Assembly: GCF_000165505.1 (NCBI RefSeq)
Contig: NC_014632.1
Coordinates: 1,550,001 to 1,614,000 of the forward strand
Origin: Ilyobacter polytropus DSM 2926
GTDB taxonomy: Bacteria > Fusobacteriota > Fusobacteriia > Fusobacteriales > Fusobacteriaceae
DNA length: 64,000 nucleotides
Reading direction: 5' to 3'
Part shown: positions 29,904 to 36,962 of the stretch, piece after piece
Layout of the letters: each line of letters begins with the position of its first letter
Numbering within the stretch: the stretch's first letter is position 1
Program-made: the position numbers and the translations under genes
Notes under the pieces: generated by a model
Databases searched by the model: none
Told to the model about the DNA's origin: nothing
What the model saw: the letters and a program-made list of their open reading frames with translations, nothing else

Positions 29904-29933
29904 TCATAAAAAAAGAAGCCTTCTAGGGCCTCT
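29904..29933 (-). terminator. Terminator after nusB
   Basis: AGAAGCC (29914-29920) pairs with GGCCTCT (29927-29933) with one G-U pair. A U-rich tract follows on the minus strand. It overlaps the nusB stop. Confidence 0.75.
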
Positions 29934-30331
29934 TATTTATTTACTATTTTAGCCAAAACTCCGTTTATGAATTCGTGAGACTTTTCTTCACCGTACTTCT
30001 TGGCAAGTTCCACGATTTCATTTATGACTATTTCATAACCTACATCTTCTTTTAAAAGTTCGTATGTTGCAAATTTCAAAAGTGTCCTTTCCACATTTCC
30101 TATTCTGTCTAGTGTCCATCCAGTCATGTTTTCATCGATAGTTCTTTGGATTTCAGCTTTATTTTCTGTCACTCCATTGGCATATCTTTCCAAAAATTCC
30201 TGTCCTGCTTTGCTTAGTTTAAAATCATCTCTTGAAATAAAATCCTCAAGGACTTCAGTTGCATCAACCTCATTTAATTCAGCTTCAAACAGAAGTTTAA
30301 AAAATTCTTCTCTTGCTGTTTTTCTACTCAT
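29933..30331 (-). CDS. nusB: Transcription antitermination protein NusB
   Basis: 132-residue helical RNA-binding protein of the boxA antitermination complex for rRNA operons. REEFFKLLFEAELNEVDATEVLEDF, WTLDRIGNVERTLLKFATYELL and IVINEIVELAKKYGEEKSHEFINGVLAKI are classic NusB. Last gene of accB-accC-asp23-amaP-DUF2273-nusB, an order shared in part with Bacillus. Confidence 0.96.
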   Translation of the reverse strand: MSRKTAREEFFKLLFEAELNEVDATEVLEDFISRDDFKLSKAGQEFLERYANGVTENKAEIQRTIDENMTGWTLDRIGNVERTLLKFATYELLKEDVGYEIVINEIVELAKKYGEEKSHEFINGVLAKIVNK

Positions 30332-30343
30332 ATTCCTACCTTT

Positions 30344-30556
30344 CTAGTCTTCTTTTAATCTTGTAATCAGTACCTTTTTTATTCTCTTTATTTTTTCCAT
30401 ATCTCCAAGATTATACCCTAGACATGTTATTGCCAATACGATAAGCATCTTCACAAATCCATATTGTATCAGAATAAGTCCAAAAAGAAAACCCCCTATA
30501 GCTCCTAAATATTTTTTTCTGTTTACCAAAAGTCCCTCTATAAATTCTGCAAGCAC
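30344..30556 (-). CDS. Small DUF2273-like membrane protein
   Basis: 70 residues: an amphipathic N-terminus, two hydrophobic segments (YLGAIGGFLFGLILIQYGF and MLIVLAITCLGYNLG) and a basic tail (KRIKKVLITRL). Size and position beside AmaP and an Asp23 protein fit DUF2273, commonly found in Asp23 operons. It has a GTG start that overlaps the amaP stop (TAGTG). Confidence 0.78.
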   Translation of the reverse strand: MLAEFIEGLLVNRKKYLGAIGGFLFGLILIQYGFVKMLIVLAITCLGYNLGDMEKIKRIKKVLITRLKED

Positions 30557-31089
30557 TACTCATCACCTCTTTCAGACCTAAAACCAGAAGCAGCTTTCCT
30601 TTTAACAAGCTTAGAAACCTTAACTTCTACGTTCTCCACCTCTACACCAAGATATTCAAAAACATAATCTTTAATCTGACTTTGCAGATCTAATATATTT
30701 TTAGATATTTCACTGTCTGTATAAGCATCTACCTTTACAGTAATAAATAGTTTTTTTCTTTTTATTTTATTCGAAGGTCTTATATTTTTTATGTCCGGGC
30801 TAGACCCCACTATTTCTTTCACCAGATTATTTACTGAAGATGATGATACAGTGAGCTTGCCATTTTCAGTCTGTATCTCATAATCTTTTGGTTTTTCAAA
30901 ATTAGAAAGTAATTTTTCAATAGCTAAAAGAAGATAAATAGTAGATAGACCTATGAGGGCTCCCCTGAAAGCATAGCCATAAAAATCTACATTGTAAAAA
31001 TATTCTGGTATAATTCCCAAATAGATTCCTCCAAGAGAAATTATAAATATACCTACCCATGCAAGGGCAAATATTAATTTTCTAACCAT
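30556..31089 (-). CDS. amaP: AmaP-like alkaline shock response membrane anchor
   Basis: 177 residues from the ATG at 31089 (GGAGG 7 bases upstream; the ATG at 31095 is too close). Two N-terminal transmembrane helices (LIFALAWVGIFIISLGG and GALIGLSTIYLLLAIEKLL) precede a cytoplasmic domain (ENGKLTVSSSSVNNLVKEIV...LFITVKVDAYTDSEI) that resembles Asp23 folds. It should tether the Asp23-family protein encoded just upstream to the membrane. Name assigned by architecture and context. Confidence 0.75.
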   Translation of the reverse strand: MVRKLIFALAWVGIFIISLGGIYLGIIPEYFYNVDFYGYAFRGALIGLSTIYLLLAIEKLLSNFEKPKDYEIQTENGKLTVSSSSVNNLVKEIVGSSPDIKNIRPSNKIKRKKLFITVKVDAYTDSEISKNILDLQSQIKDYVFEYLGVEVENVEVKVSKLVKRKAASGFRSERGDE

Positions 31090-31109
31090 TCTCATCCCTC
31101 CAAAATTAA

Positions 31110-31137: not shown

Positions 31138-31509
31138 CTAATCTAAAATTTCAATTTCTTCTTCTGCTTCTGCTTCTTTTATTTTAATATCTTGTACATA
31201 TATACCAACTTCTACAACCTTTAGTCCAGTTAGCTCAGTTATGCTTTTTATAACTGCTTCCTGTACCTCGCCTGCCACTTCTGGTATAGAGTATCCATAC
31301 TCTACAACTATAAACAACTCTATACTGCACTCTTTTTCTCCGACCTCTACCTTAACTCCATGAGTTGGTCTTTTTTTACCTAATATCTTATTTACTTCGT
31401 CCGCTACTCCTCCAGCTAGTTTAAATACTCCGTCTACATCCACAGCGGCCTTTGCAGATATTACTTTTACTACGTCATCAGCAATTTTTATATTTCCTAA
31501 TTCGCTCAT
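31138..31509 (-). CDS. Asp23/Gls24 family envelope stress protein
   Basis: 123 residues: GNIKIADDVVKVISAKAAVDVDGVFKLAGGVADEVNKILG, then VEVGEKECSIELFIVVEYGYSIPEVAGEVQEAVIKSITELTGLKVVEVGIYVQDI match the Asp23/YqhY family nearly end to end. It sits between accC and amaP, as YqhY does in Bacillus, where it has been linked to acetyl-CoA carboxylase activity. The acidic C-terminus (EAEAEEEIEILD) is typical. Confidence 0.92.
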   Translation of the reverse strand: MSELGNIKIADDVVKVISAKAAVDVDGVFKLAGGVADEVNKILGKKRPTHGVKVEVGEKECSIELFIVVEYGYSIPEVAGEVQEAVIKSITELTGLKVVEVGIYVQDIKIKEAEAEEEIEILD

Positions 31510-31575: not shown

Positions 31576-32928
31576 TTATTTTTTATTTTTATCAAAATAC
31601 TCTTCTATGAAACTCGTATACACATCACCTTTTTGATAGGCGCTATTTTCGATAACCTGAAGATGGAAAGGTATAGTAGTATCCACTCCTTCTATTACAT
31701 ACTCTTCAAGGGCTCTTTTCATTCTTATAATAGCTTCTTCTCTGTCTGATCCGTGAACTATGAGCTTAGCAATCATAGAATCATAATAAGGACTTATCAC
31801 ATAACCCTGGTATGAATGAGAGTCGATTCTTACTCCTATTCCCCCTGCAGGGATATAGGTCTCGAGAGTTCCTGCTGAAGGCAGAAAATTATTCACAGTA
31901 TCCTCTGCGTTTATTCTACATTCTATGGCATGTCCCTTTATAACTACATCATCTTGAGTAACAGTAAGTTTTCCACCAGCTGCAGCTATAATCTGCTCTT
32001 TGATGATATCCACTCCCGTTACCATCTCTGTTACAGTGTGTTCTACCTGTATTCTTGTATTCATCTCCATAAAGAAGAAATCATTTTTTTTGTCCACTAA
32101 GAATTCAAGGGTTCCTGCTGAATCATAATTTATTGCTTTAGCAAGTTTTACTGCGGCTTCACCCATTGCAACTCTCACATCCTGAGGCAGAATAGCAGAA
32201 GGTGCCTCCTCTATAAGCTTTTGGTGCCTTCTCTGTATAGAACAGTCTCTCTCTCCCAAGTGAACTACATTTCCATGCTTATCCCCTATGATCTGTATCT
32301 CGATATGTCTAGGATTCTCCACGAATTTTTCTATATATACATCTGGATTACCAAAGGCAGCTTCAGCCTCATTTTGTGCAGCTACCATATTTGTTGCAAG
32401 TTCATTGTCATTTCTAGCGATTCTCATTCCCTTTCCACCGCCTCCGGCAGTGGCTTTTATCATTACAGGATAGCCTATTCTTTCATTTACCTCTTTTTTT
32501 GCTTCTTCTATATTTTTAATAAGCCCGGTACCTTCAGTAAGAGGAACTCCGTTTTCAACTGCTGTCTTTCTCGCAGTTGCCTTGTCACCCATATTTATTA
32601 TACACTCAGGGCTAGGACCTATGAATACTATGTTGTGCATCCCACATATTTTTGCAAACTGAGCATTTTCTGCCAAAAAACCGTATCCTGGATGTATCGC
32701 ATCTGCACCTGTAACCTCAGCAGCAGATATTATATTAGGTATTTTAAGGTATGATTCTGTGCTTTTGGTAGGTCCTATACATACTGACTCATCTGCTATT
32801 CTTACATGAAGACTGTCTCTGTCGGCCTCTGAAAATACTGCAACTGTCTTTATTCCTAACTCTTTTGCAGCTCTTATAATTCTTACGGCTATTTCTCCTC
32901 TATTGGCAATCAAAATCTTATTGAACAT
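31576..32928 (-). CDS. accC: Biotin carboxylase subunit of acetyl-CoA carboxylase
   Basis: 450-residue ATP-grasp enzyme. [36 protein letters not shown], the ATP-binding [46 protein letters not shown] and [20 protein letters not shown] are all present, including catalytic Lys, Glu and Arg regions. It appears fully active. It is striking that the accB product next to it lacks the biotinyl Lys. AGGAGG precedes the ATG. Confidence 0.96.
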
Positions 32929-32954
32929 TATTATCCTCCTAAATCAACTTTTTA

Positions 32955-33374
32955 CTAGTCTAACTCTACTAAAACAAGATTCTTTCCGTAATCTGCTAGG
33001 CTTCCTTCTTCTAAAAGTATCTCTTTAACAGTACCTGCATAAGGAGTTGTCACCGGGCTATTTACACCAATTGTAGAGATAGAACCTATCTCCTGCCCCT
33101 CTTTTATCTTATCTCCGACTTTTATTATAGCTTTTCCACTTTTATTACGGTAAGAAAACTTACCTACATTATAAGATTTTACCTCTTTATACTGTTTTGT
33201 TTCTTTTACCTCATTTTCAGTCTCTGAGACTTCAACTTGCTGTGGTGCGACAGGTACAAGTTTAGGTCTTTTAAGCACTATCTTCAGATCCTCACTTTCA
33301 AAATTGATCTCAGTAAGGTTAGTATCATTTAATATCTGCATTAAATCTTCTACATTATTTATATCATCCTTCAT
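32955..33374 (-). CDS. AccB-like protein lacking the biotinylation lysine
   Basis: 139 residues with the architecture of the biotin carboxyl carrier protein: an N-terminal helix-strand (VEDLMQILNDTNLTEINFESEDLKIVLKRP), a linker rich in Pro, Gln and Glu (about 36-64) and a C-terminal biotinyl-domain fold (KVGDKIKEGQEIGSI...PYAGTVKEILLEEGSLADYG). The hairpin that should read EAMKM reads STIGV: Gly103 stands where Lys is expected. The reading frame is intact and the gene is well translated (AGGAGG). It is first in accB-accC-asp23, so it cannot be a random fragment; its function may be structural, or another carrier may serve AccC. Confidence 0.82.
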   Translation of the reverse strand: MKDDINNVEDLMQILNDTNLTEINFESEDLKIVLKRPKLVPVAPQQVEVSETENEVKETKQYKEVKSYNVGKFSYRNKSGKAIIKVGDKIKEGQEIGSISTIGVNSPVTTPYAGTVKEILLEEGSLADYGKNLVLVELD

Positions 33375-33409
33375 AAAAAAGATCCTCCTATATGTCTGTT
33401 TTACATTTC

Positions 33410-33471: not shown

Positions 33472-36400
33472 TTATTTTATAACTATGTTTTCGATTCCTA
33501 AAAGTCCCACTACCTCACTTATAAAATACTTAGATGGAGTTACACGGTACTTATTCGCCAGCTCCACTGTTTTTTTCTCACCTTTTTCTCTAAGAGCCAG
33601 GTATATTCTGTGGTCTCCCTGGTGTCTGGATATTATCTTTTTTAAAGCAGGTAATTTTGGCTTGTCTTCCTCCTCTATGAGAATATATACTTTAAACTTT
33701 AGAATCTCTCCTATCTCGTCTAAGGGCCTAAGTTCTCTTATTATGATCTTTTTTTCCTCATGTCCTCCGAAGTGATCTGTCTGCACTACCCCTTCTACAT
33801 AAAGAGGTGCTCCGTCTAAAAGATAGTGACCCATCTTTTGATAGTCTCGAGGAAAAACAACCGCTCCTATTCTACCATAATAATCTTCTAAATCAAAAAC
33901 TCCCATTACCTGACCGCTTTTTTTTGTTATAACCTTCTTCAAGTTTCTAACCATTCCATAGGTTTTTATATGAACAGGCATATCACTGACTATATCTTTT
34001 ATCTCAGTAAGCCTGTAGACTTTTAGCATCTGACGGTATTTATCTAAAGGGTGTCCCGTAAAATAAAACCCCAGAAATTCTTTTTCTCCAGTCAGAAGAT
34101 TTTCCATTTTATACTCTTCCACAGATGGCATCTGGAATTTTTCAATAGTTGCTCTAGCTTCACCAAAGAGATTCATCTGTTGTATATCGTCTTCTTTCAT
34201 AACCTTGGTGGCATAGTTTAAGGCCTTTTCCATACTTTCATATTTTTGCCTTCGGTTACCTGGAATTGAATCAAGAGCCCCTGAAAGTATAAGAGCTTCC
34301 AGTGCTTTTTTATTTACTCCCTCTTTTTTGCCTCTTGTTACAAAATTTTCAAAGGTTGTATAATCCCCGTTTCTTGCATGTTCAGCTTTTATTCTTTCTA
34401 TAAGGGTTTCTCCTACATTTTTTATTGCAGACATTCCAAATCTTACCAGATCTCCGTCAACTATAAACCTAGTGCTTATTTTGTTTATATTCGGAAGTGC
34501 CACCCCTATACCGTGTTCCTTGGCATCTTCCACATAAACAGCCAGTTTTTCGATATTATTCCTTTCAGAAGTCATCAAGGCTGCATAATAGTGTTTTGGG
34601 TAACATCCTTTAAAATACGCTGTCCAATATGCCACAAGAGCATAGGCAGCCGAATGGGATTTGTTAAATCCATAGCCTGCAAATTTATCGATAAGGTTAA
34701 AAATCTCAGTGGCTTTTTCCTCTGAATAACCCTTTTTAACCGCTCTTTTTACAAATTTATTTCGGTTTTCTTCCATTATAGCCATGTTTTTCTTTCCCAT
34801 GGCCCGTCGCAGCAAATCTGCTTCTCCTAATGTATAATCAGCCATTATATTGGCTATCTTCATTACCTGTTCCTGATAAAGTATTACACCATAAGTCTCT
34901 TTCAGTACATCTTCAAGGGATTGGTGTGGATATTTTATTGCCGCCCTTCCGTTTTTAACCTCTATAAAGTCATCTACCATCCCTGAACCTAAAGGCCCCG
35001 GTCTGTATAAAGCAAGTACGGCAATTATATCTTCAAACCTGTCCGGTTTCAGCTTCATTAGAAGTTTTCTTATTCCGTGGGACTCTAGCTGAAACACACC
35101 TAAGGTATCACCCTTCTGAAGAAGTCTGTACACCTCTAAACTATCTAGCGGTATTTTATTAAGATCTATCTCCTCATTGGTATCTTCCCTTATATAGTCT
35201 ACAGTTCTCTGAAGTATAGTTAAATTTCTGAGACCTAAAAAATCCATTTTTAGCAGCCCTAGCTCCTCTAACTCCTTCATCTGATACTGAGTGGACACAA
35301 CTTTTGTTTTTGTATCGCTGTATAAAGGCACATCATCTGTAAGGGGATCCTTTGTTATCACCACTCCGGCTGCGTGTATAGAGGCGTGTCTTACTGTATT
35401 TTCAAGCCTTTTAGAATATTCTATTAATTCTTGTGACTCACTGTCCGTCTCATATACCTCTCGTAGTTCTTCCACCTCTTTTAGAGCTCTGTCAAGACTA
35501 AAAAATGGAGGAATTAATTTGGCTATTTTATCCACCTTGAACAAGGGAACATTCATCACTCTTCCTACGTCTCTTATTGCAGCTCTAGCTTTCATGGTTC
35601 CAAAGGTTATTATCTGGGCAACTCTGTCTTTTCCATATTTTTCTCCCACATAGTCTATAACCTCTTGCCTTCTTTCCTGACATATATCTATATCTATATC
35701 TGGCATGGAGATTCTTTCAGGATTAAGAAATCTTTCGAAAATAAGATTATATTTCATAGGATCAAGCTCTGTTATTCCAAGGGAGTAGGCCACCATACTT
35801 CCAGCAGCAGAACCTCTTCCTGGACCCACAGGTATCCTGTTCTTTTTTGCATAATCAATAAAATCCCACACTACCACAAAATAGCCAGCATAATCCATCT
35901 TGTTTATGACATCTAGCTCATATTCTACTCTTTCTATGACATCTTTTTCCAGATCATTTTTATATCTTCTCTTTAATCCTTGATAAACCAATTTCCTTAA
36001 AAATTCCCTTATACTGTCTACACAGGTTGGTATCTTGTATTCTGGAAATTTGAATACTCCAAATTCTAACTCTAAATTGCACTTGTCAGCTATCTCCACT
36101 GTATTGTCAACAGCTCTGTCGTATTTTCCCAGCTCTTCTAGCATCTGCTCCCTGCTTTTGAGAAAAAGCTGGTCTGTTTCTATCTTCATCCGTTTTTCAT
36201 CTGAAATTTTACTACCTGTCTGGACACATATGAGAATATCCTGGAGGGTGTGATCTCCGTAATATACATAGTGAGTGTCATTAGTAGCCACAACTTTTAA
36301 GTCATGTTTTTTAGCAAGGGTATAGAGGGCATCGTTTAACTTCTCCTGCTTCTTTATCCCGTTAGACTGAAGTTCTACATAAAAATCTTCCTTACCAAAA

Positions 36401-36888
36401 ATTTCAACATATTCATTTACCGCCTTGTCTAAATCTTCTTCACTCTCTTCATCGAGTATTCTTTTAGAAAGTTCTCCCTGCATACAGGCAGAAAGTGCTA
36501 TTATTCCTTTACTGTGCTGTGCAAGGATCTCCTTGTCTATACGGGGTCTATAATAAAAACCTTTAAGATAAGCCTCTGATGAAAGCTTCATAAGATTTTT
36601 ATATCCAGTTTCGTTTTTGGCAAGCAGTACCAGGTGAAAGTTTCTTCCGCTTTTTTCCTCCATGGAGAATTCCGAAAGATAAGCCTCCATTCCTACTATG
36701 GGTTTTATCCCCTTTGAAAGCGCCTTTTTATAAAACTCCACAGCACCGAACATATTTCCATGGTCAGTAATAGCCATGGACCGCATACCAAGCTTCTTAG
36801 CCCTATCTAGGTATTCATCTATCTTACCCACTCCGTCGAGGAGGCTGTATTCAGTATGTAAATGTAGATGTACAAAGTTATTCTTCAT
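33472..36888 (-). CDS. dnaE: DNA polymerase III alpha subunit
   Basis: 1138 residues from the ATG at 36888 (an ATG at 36894 abuts the ribosome site). Replicative polymerase of the DnaE type. The N-terminal PHP domain begins NFVHLHLHTEYSLLDG; the palm carries GPGRGSAAGSMVAYSLGI and the catalytic PDIDIDICQERR; KMDFLGLRNLTIL and FNKSHSAAYALVAYWTAYFK follow; a C-terminal OB fold (VHIKTYGMVRNLKKVITKKSGQ) ends the protein. There is no PolC-type exonuclease insertion. Apparently alone in its transcript, behind a 150-base gap. Confidence 0.96.
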   Translation of the reverse strand: MKNNFVHLHLHTEYSLLDGVGKIDEYLDRAKKLGMRSMAITDHGNMFGAVEFYKKALSKGIKPIVGMEAYLSEFSMEEKSGRNFHLVLLAKNETGYKNLMKLSSEAYLKGFYYRPRIDKEILAQHSKGIIALSACMQGELSKRILDEESEEDLDKAVNEYVEIFGKEDFYVELQSNGIKKQEKLNDALYTLAKKHDLKVVATNDTHYVYYGDHTLQDILICVQTGSKISDEKRMKIETDQLFLKSREQMLEELGKYDRAVDNTVEIADKCNLELEFGVFKFPEYKIPTCVDSIREFLRKLVYQGLKRRYKNDLEKDVIERVEYELDVINKMDYAGYFVVVWDFIDYAKKNRIPVGPGRGSAAGSMVAYSLGITELDPMKYNLIFERFLNPERISMPDIDIDICQERRQEVIDYVGEKYGKDRVAQIITFGTMKARAAIRDVGRVMNVPLFKVDKIAKLIPPFFSLDRALKEVEELREVYETDSESQELIEYSKRLENTVRHASIHAAGVVITKDPLTDDVPLYSDTKTKVVSTQYQMKELEELGLLKMDFLGLRNLTILQRTVDYIREDTNEEIDLNKIPLDSLEVYRLLQKGDTLGVFQLESHGIRKLLMKLKPDRFEDIIAVLALYRPGPLGSGMVDDFIEVKNGRAAIKYPHQSLEDVLKETYGVILYQEQVMKIANIMADYTLGEADLLRRAMGKKNMAIMEENRNKFVKRAVKKGYSEEKATEIFNLIDKFAGYGFNKSHSAAYALVAYWTAYFKGCYPKHYYAALMTSERNNIEKLAVYVEDAKEHGIGVALPNINKISTRFIVDGDLVRFGMSAIKNVGETLIERIKAEHARNGDYTTFENFVTRGKKEGVNKKALEALILSGALDSIPGNRRQKYESMEKALNYATKVMKEDDIQQMNLFGEARATIEKFQMPSVEEYKMENLLTGEKEFLGFYFTGHPLDKYRQMLKVYRLTEIKDIVSDMPVHIKTYGMVRNLKKVITKKSGQVMGVFDLEDYYGRIGAVVFPRDYQKMGHYLLDGAPLYVEGVVQTDHFGGHEEKKIIIRELRPLDEIGEILKFKVYILIEEEDKPKLPALKKIISRHQGDHRIYLALREKGEKKTVELANKYRVTPSKYFISEVVGLLGIENIVIK

Positions 36889-36962
36889 ATGCATCCTCTC
36901 CTATATTTTTCAGTTAGATTATACCTCATATATTTTTTTTTTGCACTACATAGTTGAGTCAT

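Follow-up and report, generated by a model that had tools for sequence, protein, structure and literature searches.

An AccB paralog without the biotin-accepting lysine in the accC operon of Ilyobacter polytropus, a probable non-biotinylated subunit of acetyl-CoA carboxylase

We analyzed a window of 64,000 nucleotides from Ilyobacter polytropus DSM 2926 (contig NC_014632.1, positions 1,550,001 to 1,614,000), in which the minus strand carries a run of genes around accC (all intervals below are window coordinates on that strand unless a contig is named). Upstream lies a conserved neighbor (33472..36894) that we take to be dnaE-like, followed by an open reading frame for an AccB-like protein of 139 amino acids (32955..33374), accC (31576..32928; assigned by profile match), an Asp23-family gene (31138..31509; Pfam), an AmaP-like gene (30556..31095) and nusB (29933..30331; both NCBIfam). 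The gap between the AccB-like gene and accC is 26 nucleotides, and a Shine-Dalgarno AGGAGG precedes each of the two (33384..33389 and 32935..32940, respectively), in agreement with an earlier note on this DNA that described the operon position and ribosome site as normal. The same note held that the biotin carboxylase has its catalytic residues intact, and AccC indeed keeps 12 of 12 checked positions that we take to form the E. coli active site. Its gene is the sole stand-alone accC in this genome: no other match exceeds the accC cut-off, and the second match is a 1,210-amino-acid pyruvate carboxylase-like frame. The order accB-accC-Asp23 is shared with the B. subtilis accBC-yqhY operon, for which the available portion of PMC5437119 lists Fusobacteria among the holders, so that the Asp23-family gene occupies a YqhY-like place.

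At its biotin site the AccB-like protein reads EIGSISTIGVNSPV; in the alignment, STIGV stands in place of EAMKM, and Gly103 (codon 33066..33068) replaces the biotinyl lysine of BCCPs, as the earlier note had reported. A frame error that would restore EAMKM was looked for at this gene, and none is present. The protein scores above cut-off with Pfam Biotin_lipoyl (39.4 bits) and below it with the NCBIfam BCCP model TIGR00531 (52.2 bits against 115.2). With canonical bacterial AccB (TIGR00531) it shares length, N-terminal segment, linker, barrel domain and the place before accC, but it has neither the lysine nor EAMKM and falls short of the family cut-off. Because these two defining features (Lys/ExMKM and the TIGR00531 score) fail, the operon copy does not qualify, on its sequence, as a canonical BCCP, and without the biotin-accepting lysine it is predicted to be a protein that cannot carry biotin.

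A single-chain AlphaFold2 model, built from 25 sequences, comprises an N-terminal helix (residues 3-17), a beta-hairpin (22-27 and 30-35), a disordered linker and a BCCP-like barrel domain (residues 62-139; 32958..33191), with pLDDT of 93-96 in the barrel block and moderate values (60-73) in the N-terminal part. The top match in VIA-align was the E. coli BCCP of the BC-BCCP complex (4hr7_G; Z 15.2, rmsd 0.9, 76 aligned), and the model thus predicts that the BCCP barrel fold is retained. Gly103 falls in the hairpin turn between strands 95-101 and 104-109, and the lysine that lipoyl domains carry in an exposed turn is likewise missing. Mean column identity is 0.50 for the helix, 0.52 for the hairpin, 0.52 for the domain and 0.29 for the linker.

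The true carrier appears to be encoded elsewhere. In the 3,132,314-bp genome, whose two large contigs measure 2,046,464 and 961,624 bp, a canonical accB (149 amino acids, EAMKLMNEI) lies away from the accC operon at C1:772938-773384, between genes that are presumably folD-like and ACT-domain-like before it and an ndk-like gene after it; its product is 29% identical to the Lys-less AccB. A search for further biotinyl proteins and for accA and accD, suggested in the earlier note, also returned two decarboxylase gamma-like subunits with EAMKMEN, a pyruvate carboxylase-like protein, and accA adjoining an accD-like gene. We therefore rejected a genome without any carrier, and the proposal that AccC acts on another carrier finds its candidate in the canonical AccB. 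I. polytropus accordingly encodes what appear to be a Lys-less BCCP homolog and a true BCCP in one genome, a combination expected of a BADC-type subunit.

Among 98 Fusobacteriota genomes searched, 81 contain a complete Lys-less AccB, with Gly at the site in 81 of 81 and Lys in 0 of 81 (the copy of G028 is split in two pieces on one contig and was typed on the larger); of the remainder, G025 shows just an N-terminal piece, located where a contig ends, and 16 of the 98 are without any copy. This uniformity led us to reject a frame or assembly error, or chance, as the source of the glycine. The genomes with accC above cut-off are exactly the 81 with a complete Lys-less copy. In 80 of these the two genes were found within one stretch, the remaining stretch stopping at a contig edge, and dnaE is found in 68 of the 81 stretches, which are of unequal length. 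A canonical BCCP (at least 87 bits) accompanies the Lys-less copy in 79 of 81 genomes, the exceptions (G015 and G086) both being 82% complete, and Lys is present in all 30 typed canonical loci of the phylum; G051 and G060 hold a canonical copy with neither accC nor a Lys-less copy. By counted substitutions, dN/dS of the Lys-less gene is 0.12-0.13 for the three pairs formed by I. polytropus and two congeners and 0.06-0.21 in eight other close pairs, as compared with 0.18 in a single pair of canonical accB genes and 0.02-0.04 in accC, values which indicate that the Lys-less gene is kept under purifying selection.

Several genomes depart from this arrangement. Genus g4 (G016-G018) keeps accA but lacks both an accC match and the two kinds of AccB; in G016 an accD-like gene adjoins accA (L388, G016:C1:355500-361500) and a decarboxylase gamma-like subunit with EAMKMEN is encoded (L389). 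In G064, G082, G083, G091-G096 and G001 matches to accA and accC are missing, as is any AccB above 87 bits, a pattern that would fit loss of the entire carboxylase. The congener G043 carries, in addition to the Lys-less pair, an accB(Lys)-accC pair (L106, G043:C2:1446430-1446864), and a second accC above cut-off occurs in four g21 genomes (G070, G071, G076 and G078). Canonical BCCP matches also occur inside open frames of about 611-622 amino acids, possibly fused carrier proteins (L130 in G063, L134 in G062 and L375 in G239).

Outside the phylum we searched 146 further genomes, one per family, and typed 40 of the best matches: 36 have Lys, three Gly (L203, L204 and L208) and one Asn (L185). 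The last (G239:C493:20115-20519) is AccB-like with EAMNIFKEI, and no accC was found in its 5-kb stretch. Follow-up surveys were centered on the three Gly genomes, and their best loci were typed; because these loci were ranked by the Lys-less profile, the shares that follow are not frequencies in those phyla. Among 30 typed Spirochaetota loci, 24 are Lys-less (19 Gly, 3 Asn, 2 His) and 6 have Lys; accC was seen beside 18 of the former and all 6 of the latter. The Lys-less copies for which accC was not seen are five of family f178 and a sixth (L229) whose stretch stops at a contig edge. A second AccB accompanies 20 of the 24 Lys-less copies (plus one partial) and none of the 6 Lys-bearing linked copies (Fisher p about 1e-4, the genomes not being independent); the three Lys-less genomes without one are 80-86% complete. 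In the phylum of G101, 16 of 30 typed loci are Lys-less (11 Gly, 2 Arg, 1 Asp, 1 Ser, 1 Asn) and 14 have Lys. The lysine of these copies often stands in an altered context, such as ESMKLLNDV or ESLKVPNEI, and L251-L254 and L256-L259 are among the linked copies of this sort. For the 16 genomes of the G168 phylum, 9 of 12 accC-linked copies are Lys-less (7 Gly, 2 Asn) and 3 have Lys, and all 12 unlinked copies have Lys; a 25th row (L301) is a 580-amino-acid frame of another kind.

Forty presumed second-copy loci comprised 37 with Lys, two that are the linked copy itself (Asn, Asp) and one with no match. A contig scan returned 26 loci, of which 25 could be typed as 7 Gly (Brevinematales and Spirochaetes records) and 18 Lys, the other (L327) having no match to the model; among plasmid relatives no Lys-less match was identified, the site being typed for L144 alone (Lys). 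Glycine, asparagine, aspartate and histidine are suited to tight turns, and most replacements would therefore fit a site at which the demand for lysine was lost and the turn kept. On these alignments, Lys-less AccB, mostly accC-linked and with a canonical AccB elsewhere, is present in at least three phyla besides Fusobacteriota, so that the loss of the lysine, described in the earlier note for one gene, is a phylum-wide trait that recurs in at least three others.

A quick tree of 112 rows, from which the motif columns were dropped and in which about half of the branches are weak, places the linked copies of Fusobacteriota in one clade (SH-aLRT 86), within a group (SH-aLRT 93) that also holds p168, 13 of 16 Spirochaetota Lys-less copies and one p101 row. 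Forcing all four linked groups into one clade is not rejected (p-AU 0.642), and neither is duplication within the phylum, which is 18 log units worse (p-AU 0.262). There is perhaps an even chance that many bacteria have a five-part ACC (AccA, AccC, AccD, biotinylated AccB and a mostly accC-adjoining Lys-less AccB), that the last goes back to a single ancient AccB lineage linked to accC, with repeated loss of the biotin site across at least four phyla, and that the BADC principle is widespread among bacteria, plants having arrived at it separately.

We consider it probable that the product of the accC operon is a non-biotinylated AccB paralog, a 'pseudo-carrier', that contributes to acetyl-CoA carboxylase (ACC) as a structural or regulatory subunit. 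The earlier note offered such a role as the alternative to another carrier, and both together look right: constraint on the gene and its exact co-occurrence with accC in 81 genomes fit the role, which is itself one that we infer. In Chloroflexus aurantiacus BC1, two BC dimers are held together by a barrel built of four N-terminal BCCP hairpins; the tetramer falls apart and activity drops when the hairpin is deleted, but not when the core is (available sections of PMC11077971). BC1 differs in that its BCCP region is fused to BC and biotinylated at Lys553. Because of this hairpin role, and because the N-terminal segment is as conserved as the domain, we propose a mixed assembly of AccC, AccB and Lys-less AccB, in which the helix and hairpin of the latter (33267..33368) would be the assembly element, the hairpin joining those of canonical AccB and AccC. 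The barrel domain would fill a carrier position and take no part in carboxyl transfer, and would thereby set the stoichiometry, stability or activity of the complex, as plant BADC does. Several observations count against a subunit of this kind: the E. coli BC-BCCP crystal tetramer is held by core domains, not hairpins (PMC11077971, as available), the N-terminal part is modeled with moderate confidence, the thumb segment ahead of the central strands is shortened in f4 copies, and family f178 has a Lys-less copy without accC within 1.5 kb. In B. subtilis, cells that lose YqhY come under selection for ACC mutations (PMC5437119, available portion), and by analogy the Asp23-family gene near accC may encode a second ACC regulator.

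The same subunit might act as an inhibitor, a sub-case of the explanation just given that we hold to be possible and somewhat unlikely, in which it would displace canonical AccB from AccC and lower malonyl-CoA output. Carrier and pseudo-carrier are encoded at separate loci, so that their ratio could be tuned, and the available text of PMC11926652 gives both inhibitor and glue views of plant BADC, inhibition having been proposed first. Against this, the gene lies beside the sole stand-alone accC and is retained wherever accC is, a pattern expected of an obligatory part more than of a dispensable brake. This argument is not decisive and the data do not separate the two; our first choice is assembly ('glue'). 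The protein might instead act on biotin protein ligase as a decoy or sensor, mimicking apo-BCCP and coupling biotin supply to ACC level; it would have the right fold, that of apo-BCCP, but the whole EAMKM context, which the ligase needs for recognition, is lost, and the presence of the gene tracks accC, so that we think this very improbable. E. coli AccB autoregulates its operon through its N-terminus, and the conserved N-terminal helix-hairpin would suit an autoregulator; that reading leaves the equally strong constraint on the barrel domain unexplained, and we give it slightly less credence still. A pseudogene, sequencing error or recent loss we reject as having next to no likelihood, in view of Gly in 81 of 81 copies, dN/dS of about 0.12-0.13 and good ribosome sites.

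The nearest known system is plant BADC, likewise a BCCP homolog that lacks the biotinylation motif and coexists with a true BCCP; it is 25-30% identical to BCCP and binds both BC and BCCP (available text of PMC11926652, which cites older BADC work by Salie, Keereetaweep, Shivaiah and others). By analogy, the Lys-less AccB likely works in the same manner; it differs in being bacterial, in lying beside accC and in having Gly fixed in Fusobacteriota, and it is likened to BADC by its features, its interactions being predicted only. The 2025 paper calls BADC subunits unique to the plant enzyme (PMC11926652, in the portion available), and the available portion of PMC5437119 names the first operon gene accB with no mention of the missing lysine. 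A literature search, in which coverage of subscription papers was poor, brought up no bacterial AccB described as Lys-less. The 'accB' annotation of the Fusobacteriota operon copy is hereby corrected, in that this copy is predicted to be unable to carry biotin and the gene for the true carrier lies elsewhere. ACC catalyzes the first committed step of fatty acid synthesis, and the phylum-wide fixation of the Lys-less gene in the accC operon offers a small, tractable system in which to ask whether non-carrier subunits assemble ACC or restrain it.
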